Shown here piece by piece: positions 3 through 47,116 of a DNA stretch of 47,116 nucleotides (within the stretch, counting starts at the first letter, position 1; each line of letters opens with the position of its first letter). The notes beneath the pieces are model-generated. The model did not search any database, was not told the DNA's origin, and was given only the letters and a program-made list of their open reading frames with translations. The stretch is from an uncultured Bacilli bacterium (GTDB lineage: Bacteria; Bacillota_I; Bacilli_A; RF39; UBA660). Location of the stretch: positions 1 through 47,116 of the forward strand of contig CALVJN010000009.1 in assembly GCA_944332205.1 (NCBI GenBank), written 5' to 3'. The translations under genes were made by a program, and so were the position numbers.

Positions 3-1073
3 GAAGAAGAAATAGAGAGTTATTTTGTATGGATACCAAAGTATAGTTATAAGTTATGGGATTTAGGAAATTATACAAGTAATACAGAAATAGATGAAAG
101 TAAAGTACATTCAATAGATATAAGATTTGGCAACATCAACACAAGTGATACTGTAGAAGGAGAATGTACAACACCGAAAGTATCAGGAGAAAGTGGAAAC
201 TGTGAAGTAGGAGATTATATGACCCATCCAGCATTCTTAGCCTTTAATACGACAGGAATGTGGGTAGGAAAGTTTGAGACAGGATATGATGGTGCAACAA
301 GTGAAAGGGAAGCGAAAAAAGATACAACAGAAGTAGATAAAATAATAGTAAAACCAAATGTCTACAGCTGGAGATATATTCAATTAGTCAATTCATTTAC
401 AATAAGTTATAATTACCAAAGAGAATTAGATTCTCATATGATGAAGAATACAGAATGGGGAGCAGTAGCCTATTTATCACATTCTATTTATGGAATAAAT
501 AGTGAAATGAGGATTAATAACTATTCTGAACTAAAAACAGGATATGCAGCAACAACAGAAGAGGGAAGTAGTAGTACAACAGAAGTCGCAATGTGGAATA
601 CTCCTACAGGATATTTAGCAAGTACAACAGGAAATATAACAGGAATATATGATATGTCAGGAGGAGCAGAAGAATATGTAATGGGAGTAATGAAAGATGC
701 AAATGGCAATTTAATGTCAGGTTGGGATTCTACTTGGAATTCAGGATTTAATGGAACATTAATGGATGGGAGTAGTTTTACAAATGGAATAGATTTTCCA
801 GAGTCAAAATATTATGATGTTTATAATTATAGTACAAGTGATACTGATTATTCACGAAGAATATTAGGAGATGCAACAGGAGAGATGGGACCATTTCAAA
901 GTGATATATCGTCATGGTATAGTAATGGTGCACGTTTTCTTAAACCTGACATCCCTTGGTTCTTACGTGGTGGCCACTATTTCAGTAATCTTAGATCTGG
1001 AGAGTTCTATTTCTACAGCAACCATGGGCATGTTTTCGATATCATTTCCTTTCGTTTGGTTTTGAGTGTATAG
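3..1073 (+). CDS. FGE-sulfatase/C-lectin-like surface protein, 5' truncated by window edge
   Basis: The frame is open from base 3, so the gene begins upstream; about 356 codons are visible. The fold assignment rests on the family pattern DSHMMKNTEWGAVAYLSHS, then GIYDMSGGAEEYVMGV, then a C-terminal RGG...G.F.F...G...SFRLVL block, as in formylglycine-generating-enzyme-like (C-type lectin fold) proteins of gut Firmicutes. No catalytic role is implied; such proteins are usually display or ligand-binding scaffolds. The last ~145 bp differ sharply from the rest: Arg becomes CGT instead of AGA/AGG and codons ending in C or T dominate. This matches a DGR target whose 3' end is rewritten (separate entry). 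A strong terminator follows. Family assignment is good; the actual ligand and localisation are unknown because the N-terminus is missing. Confidence 0.8.
   Translation, partial: EEEIESYFVWIPKYSYKLWDLGNYTSNTEIDESKVHSIDIRFGNINTSDTVEGECTTPKVSGESGNCEVGDYMTHPAFLAFNTTGMWVGKFETGYDGATSEREAKKDTTEVDKIIVKPNVYSWRYIQLVNSFTISYNYQRELDSHMMKNTEWGAVAYLSHSIYGINSEMRINNYSELKTGYAATTEEGSSSTTEVAMWNTPTGYLASTTGNITGIYDMSGGAEEYVMGVMKDANGNLMSGWDSTWNSGFNGTLMDGSSFTNGIDFPESKYYDVYNYSTSDTDYSRRILGDATGEMGPFQSDISSWYSNGARFLKPDIPWFLRGGHYFSNLRSGEFYFYSNHGHVFDIISFRLVLSV
928..1073 (+). other. Candidate DGR variable region (VR) at gene 3' end
   Basis: After the motif WFLRGG, nearly every codon at non-structural positions is of the form NNC or NNT (CAC, TAT, TTC, AGT, AAT, CTT, TCT, TAC, AGC, AAC, CAT, GTT, GAT, ATC, ATT), while scaffold residues (RGG, G, F, F, G, SFRLVL) are kept. 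AAC/AAT template codons mutated at both adenines give exactly this set (H, Y, F, S, N, L, D, I, V). Base composition and codon choice change abruptly here compared with the upstream coding region. Known: adenine-directed mutagenic retrohoming diversifies the C-terminal lectin fold in DGR targets. Inferred: this is a VR; the template repeat and reverse transcriptase are not visible in the window. Confidence 0.6.
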
Positions 1074-1160
1074 TCGTAATAGTTAACCATGATATTTGTT
1101 GTTTGATACATGAATAAAGTATTAATAAATACAAATTTTATATTAAAAAATATTTTAATT

Positions 1161-1273: not shown

Positions 1274-1726
1274 ATGGAATATAAAATAACTACTAGAGAT
1301 GAAAGAGAAACTATTCAAATTGCTCAAAATATTGAATCTGAAAAGTTTGAAAATATGATTATATGTTTAGATGGAGATTTGGGAAGTGGAAAAACAGTTT
1401 TTACTAAAGGTTTTGCTCAAGCACTTGGTATTGATGAAAATATAACTTCTCCAACATTTAGTATAATAAAAGAATATAATTCCGGAGAAATGCCACTATA
1501 CCATATGGATGTATACCGTTTAGATGGAAAGATAGATGGCGTTGGGATTGAGGATTATTTTAATAAAAATGGAATTGTTATTATTGAATGGGCAGATACA
1601 ATAAAAAATTATTTACCAGCAGAACGATTAGACATAAAAATAAAAGTAATTGATGAAGATACAAGATTATTTGTTTTCACACCACATGGTAAAGCTTATG
1701 AAGATGTTTGTGATGCGGTATTATGA
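1274..1726 (+). CDS. tsaE: tRNA t6A biosynthesis ATPase TsaE
   Basis: TsaE is the small ATPase that cycles the TsaB-TsaD complex making N6-threonylcarbamoyladenosine at A37 of ANN-decoding tRNAs. The P-loop GDLGSGKT sits near residues 35-42, followed by the family segments SPTF and YHMDVYRL and the late II(I)EWAD motif. Length (150 aa) is normal. I chose ATG 1274 because GGTGAT (extended Shine-Dalgarno) lies 4 nt upstream; an in-frame TTG at 1262 would sit on that ribosome site. The stop overlaps the tsaB start (ATGA), so the two are translationally coupled. It is the first gene of tsaE-tsaB-rimI-tsaD. Confidence 0.95.
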   Translation: MEYKITTRDERETIQIAQNIESEKFENMIICLDGDLGSGKTVFTKGFAQALGIDENITSPTFSIIKEYNSGEMPLYHMDVYRLDGKIDGVGIEDYFNKNGIVIIEWADTIKNYLPAERLDIKIKVIDEDTRLFVFTPHGKAYEDVCDAVL

Positions 1727-2361
1727 AAACATTTTATTTAGATACTTCATCTAATTTTTTATATACTGCTATTTTGGAAGACGAAGTAATAATTGATGAA
1801 ATAAAAGAAAAACTAGAAAAAGATTTATCTAAGCGTACATTACCAAAAATTAAAGAAATGTTATTAAAAAATAATATTTCTTTTGATGATATAAAAAAAA
1901 TAATTGCTGTAAATGGACCGGGTTCATTTACAGGAATTAGAATTGGTCTAACTATAGCTAAAACACTAGCCTGGGCAAAGAACATTCCAATTATTCAAAT
2001 ATCTAGCTTAGAAGCAATGGCATTATCAAATAATATAGAAAATATAGATTATATTGTTCCAATAATCGATGCTAGACGTAATTTTGTATTTTCAACAATT
2101 TATGATAATAATAACAAGCAGTTTATACTTAAAGAACAATATATAAACTTAAATACATTATATGCAGTATTAGATAGCATTACTGGAAATATTTTGTTTG
2201 TAACAAATGATAACATTGAAACAAAATATAATAAGATAAATTATGAACCAAACATTTCTAGAATTGTTAAAGTAACAAAAAATAGATTAGAGATTAATCC
2301 ACATAAAATTGATGCTAATTATTTAAAATTAACGGAAGCTGAAGAAAAATATGATAATTGA
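1723..2361 (+). CDS. tsaB: tRNA t6A biosynthesis protein TsaB
   Basis: TsaB is the inactive ASKHA-fold partner that dimerises with TsaD in t6A synthesis. The protein opens with the fold's phosphate-1-like segment (FYLDTSSNFL) and has the diagnostic NGPGSFTGIRIGL block at about residues 63-75. At 212 aa it is slightly short, because the C-terminal region is compact. It overlaps tsaE by 4 nt and rimI by 11 nt, which indicates tight translational coupling in one operon. Confidence 0.93.
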   Translation: MKTFYLDTSSNFLYTAILEDEVIIDEIKEKLEKDLSKRTLPKIKEMLLKNNISFDDIKKIIAVNGPGSFTGIRIGLTIAKTLAWAKNIPIIQISSLEAMALSNNIENIDYIVPIIDARRNFVFSTIYDNNNKQFILKEQYINLNTLYAVLDSITGNILFVTNDNIETKYNKINYEPNISRIVKVTKNRLEINPHKIDANYLKLTEAEEKYDN

Positions 2362-2782
2362 TTTGACAATAAGTAATGTTGATTTAATAAATAGATTAGA
2401 AAAACAATTTCCTTATTTTTTTTTATCTAATAATGAAATAATTAAAGATTTAAACAATAATGTATTTAGTAAATACTTTATTTATGTTAAAGAAAGTAAT
2501 ATAATAGGATTTGTAAATTATTTTGACATATATGACAGATATGAAATTGTTAATATATTTGTAACTGCAACATATCGAAATAAGAAAATTGGTTCTAAAA
2601 TGCTTGAACATTTAATAAAATTAGGGGAAAAACAAAATATAAAAAATATCACACTTGAAGTAAAAAAAGATAATATAGTAGCTATTAATTTATATAAAAA
2701 GTATAATTTTGAAATAGTAGCAATAAGAAAACTTTATTATCAAGGAATAGACGGATTATTAATGGAAAGAAAGATGATGTAA
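2351..2782 (+). CDS. rimI: RimI-type GNAT N-acetyltransferase
   Basis: A GNAT-fold acetyltransferase of RimI type, which acetylates the N-terminus of ribosomal protein S18 in model bacteria. The acetyl-CoA pyrophosphate-binding loop RNKKIGSKML is at about residues 76-85. The C-terminal NLYKKYNF segment is typical of RimI (NLYKKLGF-like). The gene lies between tsaB and tsaD, the usual place for rimI in Bacillota. It overlaps tsaB by 11 nt and ends directly against the tsaD start. Substrate is inferred from family and position only. Confidence 0.85.
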   Translation: MIIDLTISNVDLINRLEKQFPYFFLSNNEIIKDLNNNVFSKYFIYVKESNIIGFVNYFDIYDRYEIVNIFVTATYRNKKIGSKMLEHLIKLGEKQNIKNITLEVKKDNIVAINLYKKYNFEIVAIRKLYYQGIDGLLMERKMM

Positions 2783-3784
2783 ATGAAAGATACTTACATA
2801 TTAGCTATTGAAAGCAGTTGCGATGAAACCAGTTGCGCTATAGTAAAAAATGGTCAAGAAGATATTGCAACTGTTATACTGTCTCAAATTGATATACATA
2901 CAAACTTTGGAGGTGTAGTGCCAGAAATTGCAAGTCGGCAACATATAAAAAATATAACGATAGTAATTGAAGATTGTTTGAAAAAAGCTAATATGAAAAT
3001 TGAAGATATTGATGCGATTGCCGTTACATATGGACCTGGTTTAGTTGGATCATTACTAGTAGGACTAGAAGCGGCTAAAACTTTATCATTAATTTATAAT
3101 AAACCTTTAATTCCAGTAAATCATATAATTGGTCATATATATGCTAATAATATAGAGAAAAAAATGGAATATCCATTAATTGCATTAGTAATTAGTGGTG
3201 GACATACTGAATTGATTCTTATGAAAGATGAATATGAATTTGAAAAAATTGGTGGAACTCTAGATGATGCAGTTGGTGAAACCTATGATAAAGTAGCAAG
3301 GGTAATTGATGTTGGATATCCAGGTGGACCAGTAATAGATAAGCTTTCAGCAAAAGGAAGCCATGAATATGATTTACCAATACCTTTAAATGATAACAGT
3401 TATAACTTTAGCTTTAGCGGCTTAAAAAGTGCTGTAATTAATTTAGCACATAAAATGGAACAAAGAAATGAAAAACTAAACAAAGAAAACTTAGCTAAAT
3501 CATTTCAAGATGTCATAGTAGAATCTATTACAAAAAAGACAATTAAAGCATTAAAGGATAAAAATGTAAAAAGATTAATTTTAGCTGGTGGAGTAGCTGC
3601 TAATCAAGGTATTAGAAATAAACTAGAAGAAATTTGTAAAAAAGAAAATATTGAGTATAATTTCCCTAATATTAAATATTGTACAGATAATGCTACAATG
3701 ATTGGAGCAGCAGCATACTATGCATATAAGAAAGGAATAACAGCGACAATAGATTTAAATGCAGTTTCAAACGAAGAATTATAG
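2783..3784 (+). CDS. tsaD: tRNA N6-adenosine threonylcarbamoyltransferase TsaD
   Basis: TsaD transfers the threonylcarbamoyl group from threonylcarbamoyl-AMP to A37 of tRNA. Seen: the N-terminal AIESSCDETS, PGLVGSLLVGL, the metal-binding pair in NHIIGH (His114 and His118), ISGGHTEL, NFSFSGLKSA, and the late DNATMIGAAA block that completes nucleotide/metal binding. Length, 333 aa, is standard. The start abuts the rimI stop with no gap; the ribosome site must lie in the end of rimI (aaagaaagatg). This is the last t6A gene; a Lys-rich membrane protein follows 11 nt later with its own strong GGAGG. Confidence 0.96.
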   Translation: MKDTYILAIESSCDETSCAIVKNGQEDIATVILSQIDIHTNFGGVVPEIASRQHIKNITIVIEDCLKKANMKIEDIDAIAVTYGPGLVGSLLVGLEAAKTLSLIYNKPLIPVNHIIGHIYANNIEKKMEYPLIALVISGGHTELILMKDEYEFEKIGGTLDDAVGETYDKVARVIDVGYPGGPVIDKLSAKGSHEYDLPIPLNDNSYNFSFSGLKSAVINLAHKMEQRNEKLNKENLAKSFQDVIVESITKKTIKALKDKNVKRLILAGGVAANQGIRNKLEEICKKENIEYNFPNIKYCTDNATMIGAAAYYAYKKGITATIDLNAVSNEEL

Positions 3785-20010: not shown

Positions 20011-21873
20011 ATGTCTAATGGGTATTTAACTGGTTGTGCTTTAGTAATTGCCATATTAATTACTATAATGTTTTTTATAAAAAAGAGCATAAATAATATT
20101 GAAACAAAAATATTTAAAAAAATGTTAGTATGTAATATTTTTGAAGCTTTAACAACAACATTAATTGTTATCGTTGCACTAACTATTAATTCCAATATGG
20201 TTTTTAAATTACTAAATAGGATAGATATAATATGGATTATTAGCTGGTGTAGTTTAATGTTTTACTACGTATATAGCATTTCATCTTTTTCAAAAAAGCA
20301 CCAAATTAAAAGATTTATATATGCTGTAAATGCAATAATATTTGCTCTGACACTTGTGTTAAATGTTGAAATTATAAATAAGAATGGTATATTAAATTCT
20401 ACAGGTCCATTAACTTATTTAGGCTTAATTGGTGCAGTTTTCTATATTGTTTTAATGATTTTAATATTGATAAAATCTAAAAATAATGACAAATTAGATA
20501 CTAAAAAGTATATACCTCTTTATTTCTTAATGCTATTATTAGTTATTGTAGCAATTTTAAGATTAACTATACCAGAAATAAACTTTATTTCTATTTCATT
20601 AAGTTTAGTTGATATGATTATGATTTTTACTATAGAAAATCCTGATATAAAAATGATTACTCAATTAAATTTAGCAAAAAATCAAGCAGAACGTTCTAAT
20701 AGAGTAAAGAGTGATTTTTTATCAAGTATGTCTCATGAAATAAGAACACCATTAAATGCCATTGTAGGGCTTTCAGATGATGTTGCAAGTTATAAAAATC
20801 AAGTCCCTAAGGAGGTAATAGAGGATATCGAAGATATACAAAATGCCTCTCAAACACTTTTAGAAATAGTTGGTAATATATTAGATATTAATAAAATTGA
20901 AAGTGAAAAAATGGATATAGTAGAATCGCCATATAATTTTAAAGAAGAAATTACTAAAATGGCGAGAGTAACCGCAACAAGAATTGGTGATAAATCAATA
21001 AATTTTAAAATTAACATGTCAGAAGATATTCCTTACGAATTGATTGGTGATAGAATACACATTAAAGAGATTATTAATAATTTACTTACTAACGCGATTA
21101 AATATACAGAAAAAGGAGAAATTAATTTAAATGTTAAATGCATTAATAAGGAAAATAATTGTTTATTGATAATAAGTGTTAAAGATACAGGAAGAGGCAT
21201 AAAATCAGAGAATATTAGTAAGTTGTTTACAAAGTTTCAACGTTTAGATGAGGATCGAAATACAACTATAGAAGGAACTGGATTAGGTTTAGCTATCACT
21301 AAAGCATTGATTGATATGATGGGTGGAAAAATAAATGTTCAAAGTCAATTTGGTCAGGGTTCATTATTTATAGTACAAATACCACAAAAAATTAGTAAAT
21401 TAGTTAATCCTATGACAGAAGAAAAAGCTGTTCTTAAAATAGAACAACCTAATAGTTTAAATGATAGAAAAGCTGATTTAATAAATAATAATCTCAATAC
21501 TAAAAAAGTTTTAATAGTTGACGACAGCAAGTTAAATATAAAAGTAGCCAAAAAAGTCTTATCTAATTTTAATTTGCAAGTAGATGAATGTGATAACGGA
21601 TTTGATTGTTTAGAGCGAGTAAATAATGGAATAAACTATGATCTTATTTTAATGGATATCATGATGCCAGAAATGTCCGGAGAAACCACACTTGCTAAAT
21701 TGAAAAGTAATCCTCAATTTAATATCCCAGTAATTGCACTTACTGCTGATGCAGTTGCAGGTGCAAGGGAAAAGTATATATCAGAAGGATTTACAGATTA
21801 TTTAGTAAAACCATTTACCAAAGAACAAATGAAAGAAAAAATAGATTTAATTTTAAATCAAGATAGTAAATAA
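20011..21873 (+). CDS. Hybrid sensor histidine kinase with C-terminal receiver domain
   Basis: A membrane sensor with about six to seven N-terminal membrane segments (residues 5-207). A HisKA domain follows with phosphoacceptor His242 (SHEIRTPLNA), a HATPase_c domain with N box (NNLLTNAIKY, ~356), G1 box DTGRGI (~392), F box and GTGLGL (~422), and a receiver domain from about 498 with acidic pair DD, phosphoacceptor Asp549 (LILMDIMMPEMSG) and Lys in LVKPF. No HPt or separate response regulator is adjacent, so the output path is unknown. The sensor region has no known ligand domain. GGAG precedes ATG 20011. Confidence 0.92.
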   Translation: MSNGYLTGCALVIAILITIMFFIKKSINNIETKIFKKMLVCNIFEALTTTLIVIVALTINSNMVFKLLNRIDIIWIISWCSLMFYYVYSISSFSKKHQIKRFIYAVNAIIFALTLVLNVEIINKNGILNSTGPLTYLGLIGAVFYIVLMILILIKSKNNDKLDTKKYIPLYFLMLLLVIVAILRLTIPEINFISISLSLVDMIMIFTIENPDIKMITQLNLAKNQAERSNRVKSDFLSSMSHEIRTPLNAIVGLSDDVASYKNQVPKEVIEDIEDIQNASQTLLEIVGNILDINKIESEKMDIVESPYNFKEEITKMARVTATRIGDKSINFKINMSEDIPYELIGDRIHIKEIINNLLTNAIKYTEKGEINLNVKCINKENNCLLIISVKDTGRGIKSENISKLFTKFQRLDEDRNTTIEGTGLGLAITKALIDMMGGKINVQSQFGQGSLFIVQIPQKISKLVNPMTEEKAVLKIEQPNSLNDRKADLINNNLNTKKVLIVDDSKLNIKVAKKVLSNFNLQVDECDNGFDCLERVNNGINYDLILMDIMMPEMSGETTLAKLKSNPQFNIPVIALTADAVAGAREKYISEGFTDYLVKPFTKEQMKEKIDLILNQDSK

Positions 21874-46418: not shown

Positions 46419-47116
46419 ATGGATAATTGTTGTGACAAAGATCACTTTAGGCCAGAACCTCCATTTAAATGCCCACCTCGTGTTGTATATGCTATTGGGC
46501 CAACAGGACCAACAGGACCAACAGGACCAACAGGTCCAATAGGGGCAACAGGCGCAACGGGACCAAGCATAACAGGGCCAACAGGACCGACTGGACCAGC
46601 AGGGCCAACAACTATAGCAGTCGGAAGAACAACAACTGGAATTCCTGGAACTTCAGCAACAGTAACTAATAGTGGAACAAATCAAGATGCTATATTTGAT
46701 TTTCAAATTCCGGCAGGTGCAATGGGACCAACGGGACCAACAGGGCCAATAGGAGTAACCGGTGCAACGGGGCCAACAGGACCAACAGGACCACAAGGAC
46801 CAGCAGGAGCAAGTGGCTCAACTCCAACTATACAAATTGGTACAGTTACAACAGGTGCACCAGGTACAGCAGCAGCAGCGACTATTACTGGAACGGCACC
46901 TAATTTAATATTAAATTTAACAATACCACAAGGACCAACAGGACCAACAGGAGCAACAGGTGCAACGGGACCAACCGGCGCAACTGGAGCAATGGGACTA
47001 AGTGTAACAGGGCCAACAGGGCCAGAAGGAGCAACAGGACCAACAGGGCCAGAAGGAGCAACAGGACCAACAGGGCCAGAAGGAGCAACAGGACCAACAG
47101 GGCCAGAAGGAGCAAC
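46419..47116 (+). CDS. Collagen-like (Gly-X-Thr triplet) surface protein, 3' truncated by window edge
   Basis: The first 26 residues are Cys- and Pro-rich ([20 protein letters not shown]). Gly-X-Y triplets of GPT/GAT/GPE type follow, in three blocks separated by two related non-collagen modules of about 40 residues ([14 protein letters not shown]...FDFQIPAG and [14 protein letters not shown]...LNLTIPQG). This is the BclA/exosporium and phage-tail collagen-like type found in Firmicutes. No signal peptide is evident. GAAAGGAAGG precedes ATG 46419. The base composition is richer in G and C than the neighbours because of the repeats. The gene runs off the right edge. Role, such as spore coat or surface filament, is inferred. 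Confidence 0.85.
47010..47116 (+). repeat. 27-bp tandem repeat in the collagen-like gene
   Basis: Unit GG(A/G)-CCA-ACA-GGG-CCA-GAA-GGA-GCA-ACA, nine residues GPTGPEGAT, repeated four times and cut by the window edge. The last three copies are identical as far as visible; the first differs by one base (GGG for GGA). Confidence 0.93.

Follow-up and report, generated by a model that had tools for sequence, protein, structure and literature searches.

The first gene of the window (the whole 47,116 bp stretch of DNA analysed here, which is contig C9 of its genome) is very probably a target of a single DGR, visible at its 3' end and one of about eight such genes spread through the genome. The DGR lies on a different contig, C3, and the target copy in the window seems to have gone a long time without being overwritten. 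The source genome is a metagenome-derived draft of 1.25 Mb in 34 contigs (~95% complete, 1% contamination).

A codon shift at the 3' end of the window gene

The gene of interest is an open reading frame on the plus strand (3..1073; 356 visible amino acids), the 5' end of which is cut by the contig start. It is a paralogue of the target genes described below, with a product predicted to have a C-type-lectin/FGE fold, and is 77–79% identical along its length to paralogues C20a, C6 and C23. The encoded protein ends in PWFLRGGHYFSNLRSGEFYFYSNHGHVFDIISFRLVLSV* (final residues SFRLVLSV).

An earlier, sequence-only reading had reported an abrupt shift to NNC/NNT codons in the last ~145 bp of the gene, and the codon-ending counts bear this out. 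From ~base 930 onwards, C or T is the final base in 36 of 47 codons, compared with 125 of 309 upstream (Fisher p = 2.9e-6); the corresponding counts for C alone are 14/47 and 17/309 (p = 3.8e-6). The shift is the strongest in the window: neither value was matched by 936 comparison windows of 48 codons, drawn from the long open frames of the 47-kb window. The shifted stretch has a GC content of 40%; the gene body has 33%, and the window as a whole 25%.

The shifted stretch had been correctly placed at 928–1073. Within it, positions 936..1064 (+) are homologous to a 129 bp template repeat (TR) on contig C3 (C3:11256-11384, minus strand), and constitute the variable repeat (VR) of the window. The VR core, containing the codons that vary among paralogues, occupies 936..1046 (+), and is followed by a 3' constant segment (SFRLVL) that runs to the stop codon (1047..1073, +). 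Downstream of the target gene lie the housekeeping genes tsaE-tsaB-rimI-tsaD (1274..3784, +).

A single DGR cassette on contig C3

The sequence-only reading had expected the retroelement to lie outside the window or to act in trans, and had raised the question of a DGR-type reverse transcriptase (RT) in the complete genome. One is present: a search of the genome with RVT_1 gave a single match (C3:9513-10121), and the RT, Avd and TR are all located on C3. The minus-strand order is target gene with cis VR, hairpin, TR, MSL, avd and RT (cassette TG-TR-MSL-avd-RT). The cis target (652 aa) bears a prepilin signal (PF07963), and its VR is C-terminal; directly 3' of its stop codon is the hairpin GTTTTTCCGC-TTGT-GGAAAAAC. 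The TR is rich in AAC codons. MSL is a 127-aa ORF with MutS domain I (PF01624, 1.4e-8; C3:10662-11045, the same as L020:4666-5046, minus strand), and Avd matches PF22296 (bAvd, 1.4e-17) and NF033474 (4.5e-19). The RT (342 aa; PF00078; phrog_1423, 3e-102) carries the motifs IGNYTSQ and YMDD, the former containing the SQ motif of a putative DGR-clade RT. An RT, a TR/VR pair with mismatches at adenines only and an accessory protein together classify the C3 system, on sequence grounds, as a DGR.

Two side observations concern the cassette and its surroundings. Firstly, MSL resembles a mini-MutS, consisting of domain I and a C-terminal piece similar to the MutS tail (LTPIQAMNFLFELK). When the MutS GDFYE motif is aligned with MSL, the Phe is retained and the Glu is replaced by Ile or Leu in 9/9 cassettes. 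Secondly, closely similar hybrid histidine kinase/response regulators are encoded in the window (20011-21873) and on L020 near C3:6002-7060, a few kb from the DGR RT.

One TR and several trans VRs

The 129 bp TR comprises 31 adenines and 98 other positions; the core comprises the same 31 adenines and 80 other positions. Compared with the TR, the cis VR is changed at 13/31 adenines and 0/98 other positions (p=8.8e-10). Homologous VRs occur in seven dispersed paralogues located on other contigs, including the window gene, giving about eight target genes for one TR. Adenine changes number 9–17/31 in all VRs, and core non-adenine changes form a graded series: 0/80 in C3 and C12, 1 in C20b, 3 in C6, 6 in both C20a and C23, 14 in C31, and 19 in the window (C9). 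The suggested near-copy with all mismatches at adenines thus exists for the cis VR and the C12 core (12/31 A, 0/80 non-A), and does not for the window VR, which carries 19–23 non-adenine changes.

Upstream of the VRs, the gene bodies are 11–20% diverged from the cis target, without adenine bias; those of C9, C20a, C6, C23 and C12 are each 19–20% diverged from C3. The two clean trans VRs, C12 and C20b (0 or 1 non-A changes per 80), sit on bodies that are 11–19% diverged. Copying from the TR is the best explanation for VRs that are clean although their gene bodies have diverged, and it implies that the DGR acts in trans. Differences 3' of the core (CGC>CGT, TTG>TTA, GTG>GTT/GTC) are common to the trans targets and absent from the cis VR, which is identical to the TR here. 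This is expected if overwriting ends at an IMH-like boundary. By analogy with BPP-1, the 3' constant segment may thus play the role of an IMH, on the side where cDNA integration is expected; most trans targets show no overwriting of this segment.

A window VR that is probably the oldest in the genome

Over the full 129 bp, the window VR differs from the TR at 15/31 adenines and 23/98 other positions (Fisher p=0.0088); in the core, at 15/31 and 19/80 (p=0.012). The gene body shows no such bias (51/294, or 17%, changed at A; 80/406, or 20%, at other bases), so the adenine bias is confined to the VR. The proposal that this stretch is a DGR variable region is therefore supported: it is a homologue of the TR with extra change at TR adenines (p = 0.009–0.012). 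Descent from the TR would also leave third-position C in place, and 8/13 TR AAC/AGC codons retain it in the alignment.

The accompanying claim that the scaffold was kept and only variable codons changed does not hold: several of the 23 non-adenine differences fall in scaffold codons (GSGAGA -> NLRSGE, GHA -> GHV). These changes are scattered over the whole core, and 15/23 are non-synonymous. At 24%, non-adenine divergence equals or exceeds the 20% of the body; the near-absence of non-adenine change that marks recent homing is not seen. The window VR has the highest core non-A count, making it probably the oldest VR of the genome, and non-adenine changes as many as in the gene body indicate that it has long not been overwritten. 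In a DNA search with the TR at E<=0.001, the window VR was not recovered. Taken together, the sequence of the window VR is best read as that of a former DGR target, long un-overwritten.

A hairpin follows the clean VRs

The clean VRs are followed by a hairpin, GTTTTTCCRC-TTGT-GGAAAAAC. In BPP-1, a hairpin is required for efficient homing (PMC3240598). A hairpin or cruciform was looked for just 3' of the window VR, and is absent: the 3' flank (1071..1100, +, placed by alignment) has a predicted dG of 0, versus about -8 after C3, C12, C20b and C23. Across 16 VRs of two species, the correlation between hairpin strength and VR ageing is not significant (Spearman rho 0.43, p=0.10). There are also exceptions: C20a has no hairpin yet shows only 6/80 non-A changes, while 9_C57 has one yet shows 22/80. 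Given the correlation and these two counterexamples, we rejected hairpin loss as a simple cause of ageing. The weak correlation and the counterexamples leave it as a possible, rather than an established, cause.

Targets and cassettes in related genomes

Target homologues occur in 40/146 related genomes. The named relatives are all uncultured: mostly Bacilli, Tenericutes and Erysipelotrichaceae MAGs and Candidatus Ventrenecus, with one labelled Lachnospiraceae. MSL is present in 9/11 cassettes examined from genomes with a close RT (window genome counted). In one relative (G031; L206-L222), a single TR is accompanied by about 16 VRs, which lie dispersed across the 1.3-Mb genome. The cis VR of this genome has changes at 9/34 A and 0/104 non-A positions; about 15 further VRs show 2–27/104 non-A changes, most with significant adenine bias. 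One TR with many dispersed VRs is thus an apparently family-wide arrangement.

Several target loci are syntenic between the window genome and a close congener, G009 (window genome/G009: C20b/C12, C12/C57, C23/C9, C20a/C34, and C31/C43, the last by its downstream flank). Two G009 VRs, 9_C12 and 9_C42, differ from the window genome's TR by 2–4 non-A changes. The target gene of a distant relative (L179) precedes tsaE-tsaB-rimI-tsaD, in the same order as in the window; in the G009 loci examined, an ortholog of the window gene was not found via tsaE synteny. Relatives of the window protein were also looked for on viral contigs, and none was found. As a separate observation, two class-level relatives (G109:C1 and G135:C1) carry near-identical RT copies in 14 and about 10 places, respectively; these are probably group II introns.

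Predicted fold and export of the target proteins

A predicted model of the window protein (pLDDT 68.5, pTM 0.74) supports a C-type-lectin/FGE fold with a C-terminal VR. The best solved structure match is TaqVP, itself the variable protein of a DGR, with Z 11.7 over 210 residues and 20% identity; Mtd and TvpA come next at about Z 8, then FGE at about Z 7. The earlier assignment to an FGE-like fold of the classic DGR-target type is hence in agreement with the model. The fold is visible by structure only: the FGE-sulfatase Pfam has no sequence match in the genome.

The N-terminus is visible in five targets: in C3, C6, C23 and C31 it is of the prepilin type, and in C20a it is not; that of the window gene lies beyond the contig start. 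On C3, the genes for a prepilin peptidase and a T2SSF-type platform protein are neighbours. From these features, we infer that the target proteins may be exported and displayed on a pilus-like structure, as variable adhesins or tip pilins. In C20a (L200:4603-6003, minus strand), a hydrophobic N-terminus, IMLLITITILGLSIGYGAFNAELSISGDASVNG, replaces the prepilin signal, giving two export types on one diversified domain. Elsewhere in the window (46419-47116) is a collagen-like GPTGPT-repeat protein that resembles SclB/Lcl adhesin models, below their cut-offs.

Origin of the window VR

We propose the following course of events, modelled on BPP-1 in its first two steps. TR RNA would be reverse-transcribed with random bases placed opposite adenines, and the resulting cDNA would replace the VR of any matching target. 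The lectin-fold products would presumably be exported and shown on the cell surface as adhesins or tip pilins that vary. The window copy would still carry the footprint of the TR, namely C-ending codons and excess change at TR adenines, its overwriting having stopped long ago, perhaps after loss of a 3' recognition hairpin. Caveats to this reading are the modest adenine bias of the window VR, its absence from the hits of the TR search at E<=0.001, and the draft state of the genome.

Taken alone, that bias (p=0.01) could arise without any DGR, through drift or the usual diversifying selection acting on lectin-family C-termini. For the target family this is refuted by the complete DGR in the genome and by paralogue VRs with adenine-only changes, and since homology to the TR extends over the entire window VR, we consider such an origin almost certainly wrong here too. 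The high level of change at VR adenines (15/31) would also be expected of a trans target that is still active, with scaffold drift arising from partial overwriting at each event; non-A changes across the whole core, matching body divergence, and the missing 3' hairpin speak against this, and make it very improbable.

The main rival reading is a lost second TR: the window VR would belong to another TR, still active or recently lost (scaffold like NNNNRSGEFYFNNNNGHVNNN), rather than to that on C3. In its favour, the third base of nearly every variable VR codon is C or T, the change from GSGAGA to NLRSGE is a block change, and in T. denticola SP32 a remote target matches the TR type of another strain (PMC4891356). 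Indeed, a lost, different TR fits the mostly non-synonymous non-A changes about as well as ageing does. However, the genome contains a single RT and a single TR, with no second TR for the window VR, and no TR-like near-copy of 936–1073 was found in 386 genomes of the family (at a threshold that would miss a very different one); the third-position C shared with the C3 TR also argues against it. On balance, we judge a second TR improbable, and prefer the reading of the window VR as an aged target of the C3 TR.

A broader scenario strikes us as unlikely in its entirety: in this family of reduced-genome gut Bacilli, one DGR would maintain 8–16 dispersed type IV pilin-lectins, hairpin loss would switch off single targets and so fix useful variants, and the truncated MutS-like protein, lacking the mismatch-binding Glu, would shield homing intermediates from mismatch repair.

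Significance and comparison with known systems

The targets of one TR span clean (0 non-adenine changes) to old (24%), and several are syntenic between species. They provide a natural series with which to gauge how frequently trans targets are rewritten, how targets are retired, and which flanking features are relevant. In uncultured gut Bacilli, they also connect prepilin-type surface proteins with diversification by a DGR. A literature search on DGRs together with Tenericutes/RF39 gave nothing relevant among the top-ranked matches. DGRs serving several distant targets (T. denticola, PMC4891356) and multi-VR DGRs (PMC3521204) are already known; the present case adds a new lineage, target genes of a prepilin-lectin family and a graded series of target ages.

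The DGR of Treponema denticola has seven TvpA-type targets (PMC4891356; Le Coq and Ghosh 2011) and, like the C3 system, uses one RT and TR for several distant paralogous lectin-fold targets. In some T. denticola isolates, remote targets belong with a different TR, or targets are left over where the RT is missing (PMC4891356). What sets the C3 system apart is its host, an uncultured gut member of the Bacilli with low GC, together with the prepilin-type N-termini of its targets, the MSL accessory and the gene order (TG-TR-MSL-avd-RT). Bordetella phage BPP-1 (Mtd/Brt/Avd; PMC3240598) shares with it an RT, Avd, TR and a 3'-terminal VR in a C-type-lectin domain, as well as a hairpin right after the stop codon of the cis VR (PMC3240598). 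Unlike BPP-1, the C3 system is chromosomal and has many trans targets; its hairpin has an AT-richer stem and a TTGT-type rather than a GRNA loop, and is missing from the window copy.

MSL (MutS-like, PF01624) is named as a DGR accessory in PMC10053308, citing the survey of Wu et al. 2018. Like the C3 MSL, it is encoded by a small ORF that lies between TR and avd and contains MutS domain I; the MSLs of the nine cassettes studied here have Ile or Leu where MutS GDFYE has Glu. Finally, TaqVP of Thermus aquaticus (PDB 5vf4, PMC6328139) is, like the window protein, an FGE-subtype C-type lectin with a C-terminal VR; the two share 20% identity, and the sections of the TaqVP report drawn on here mention no prepilin N-terminus.
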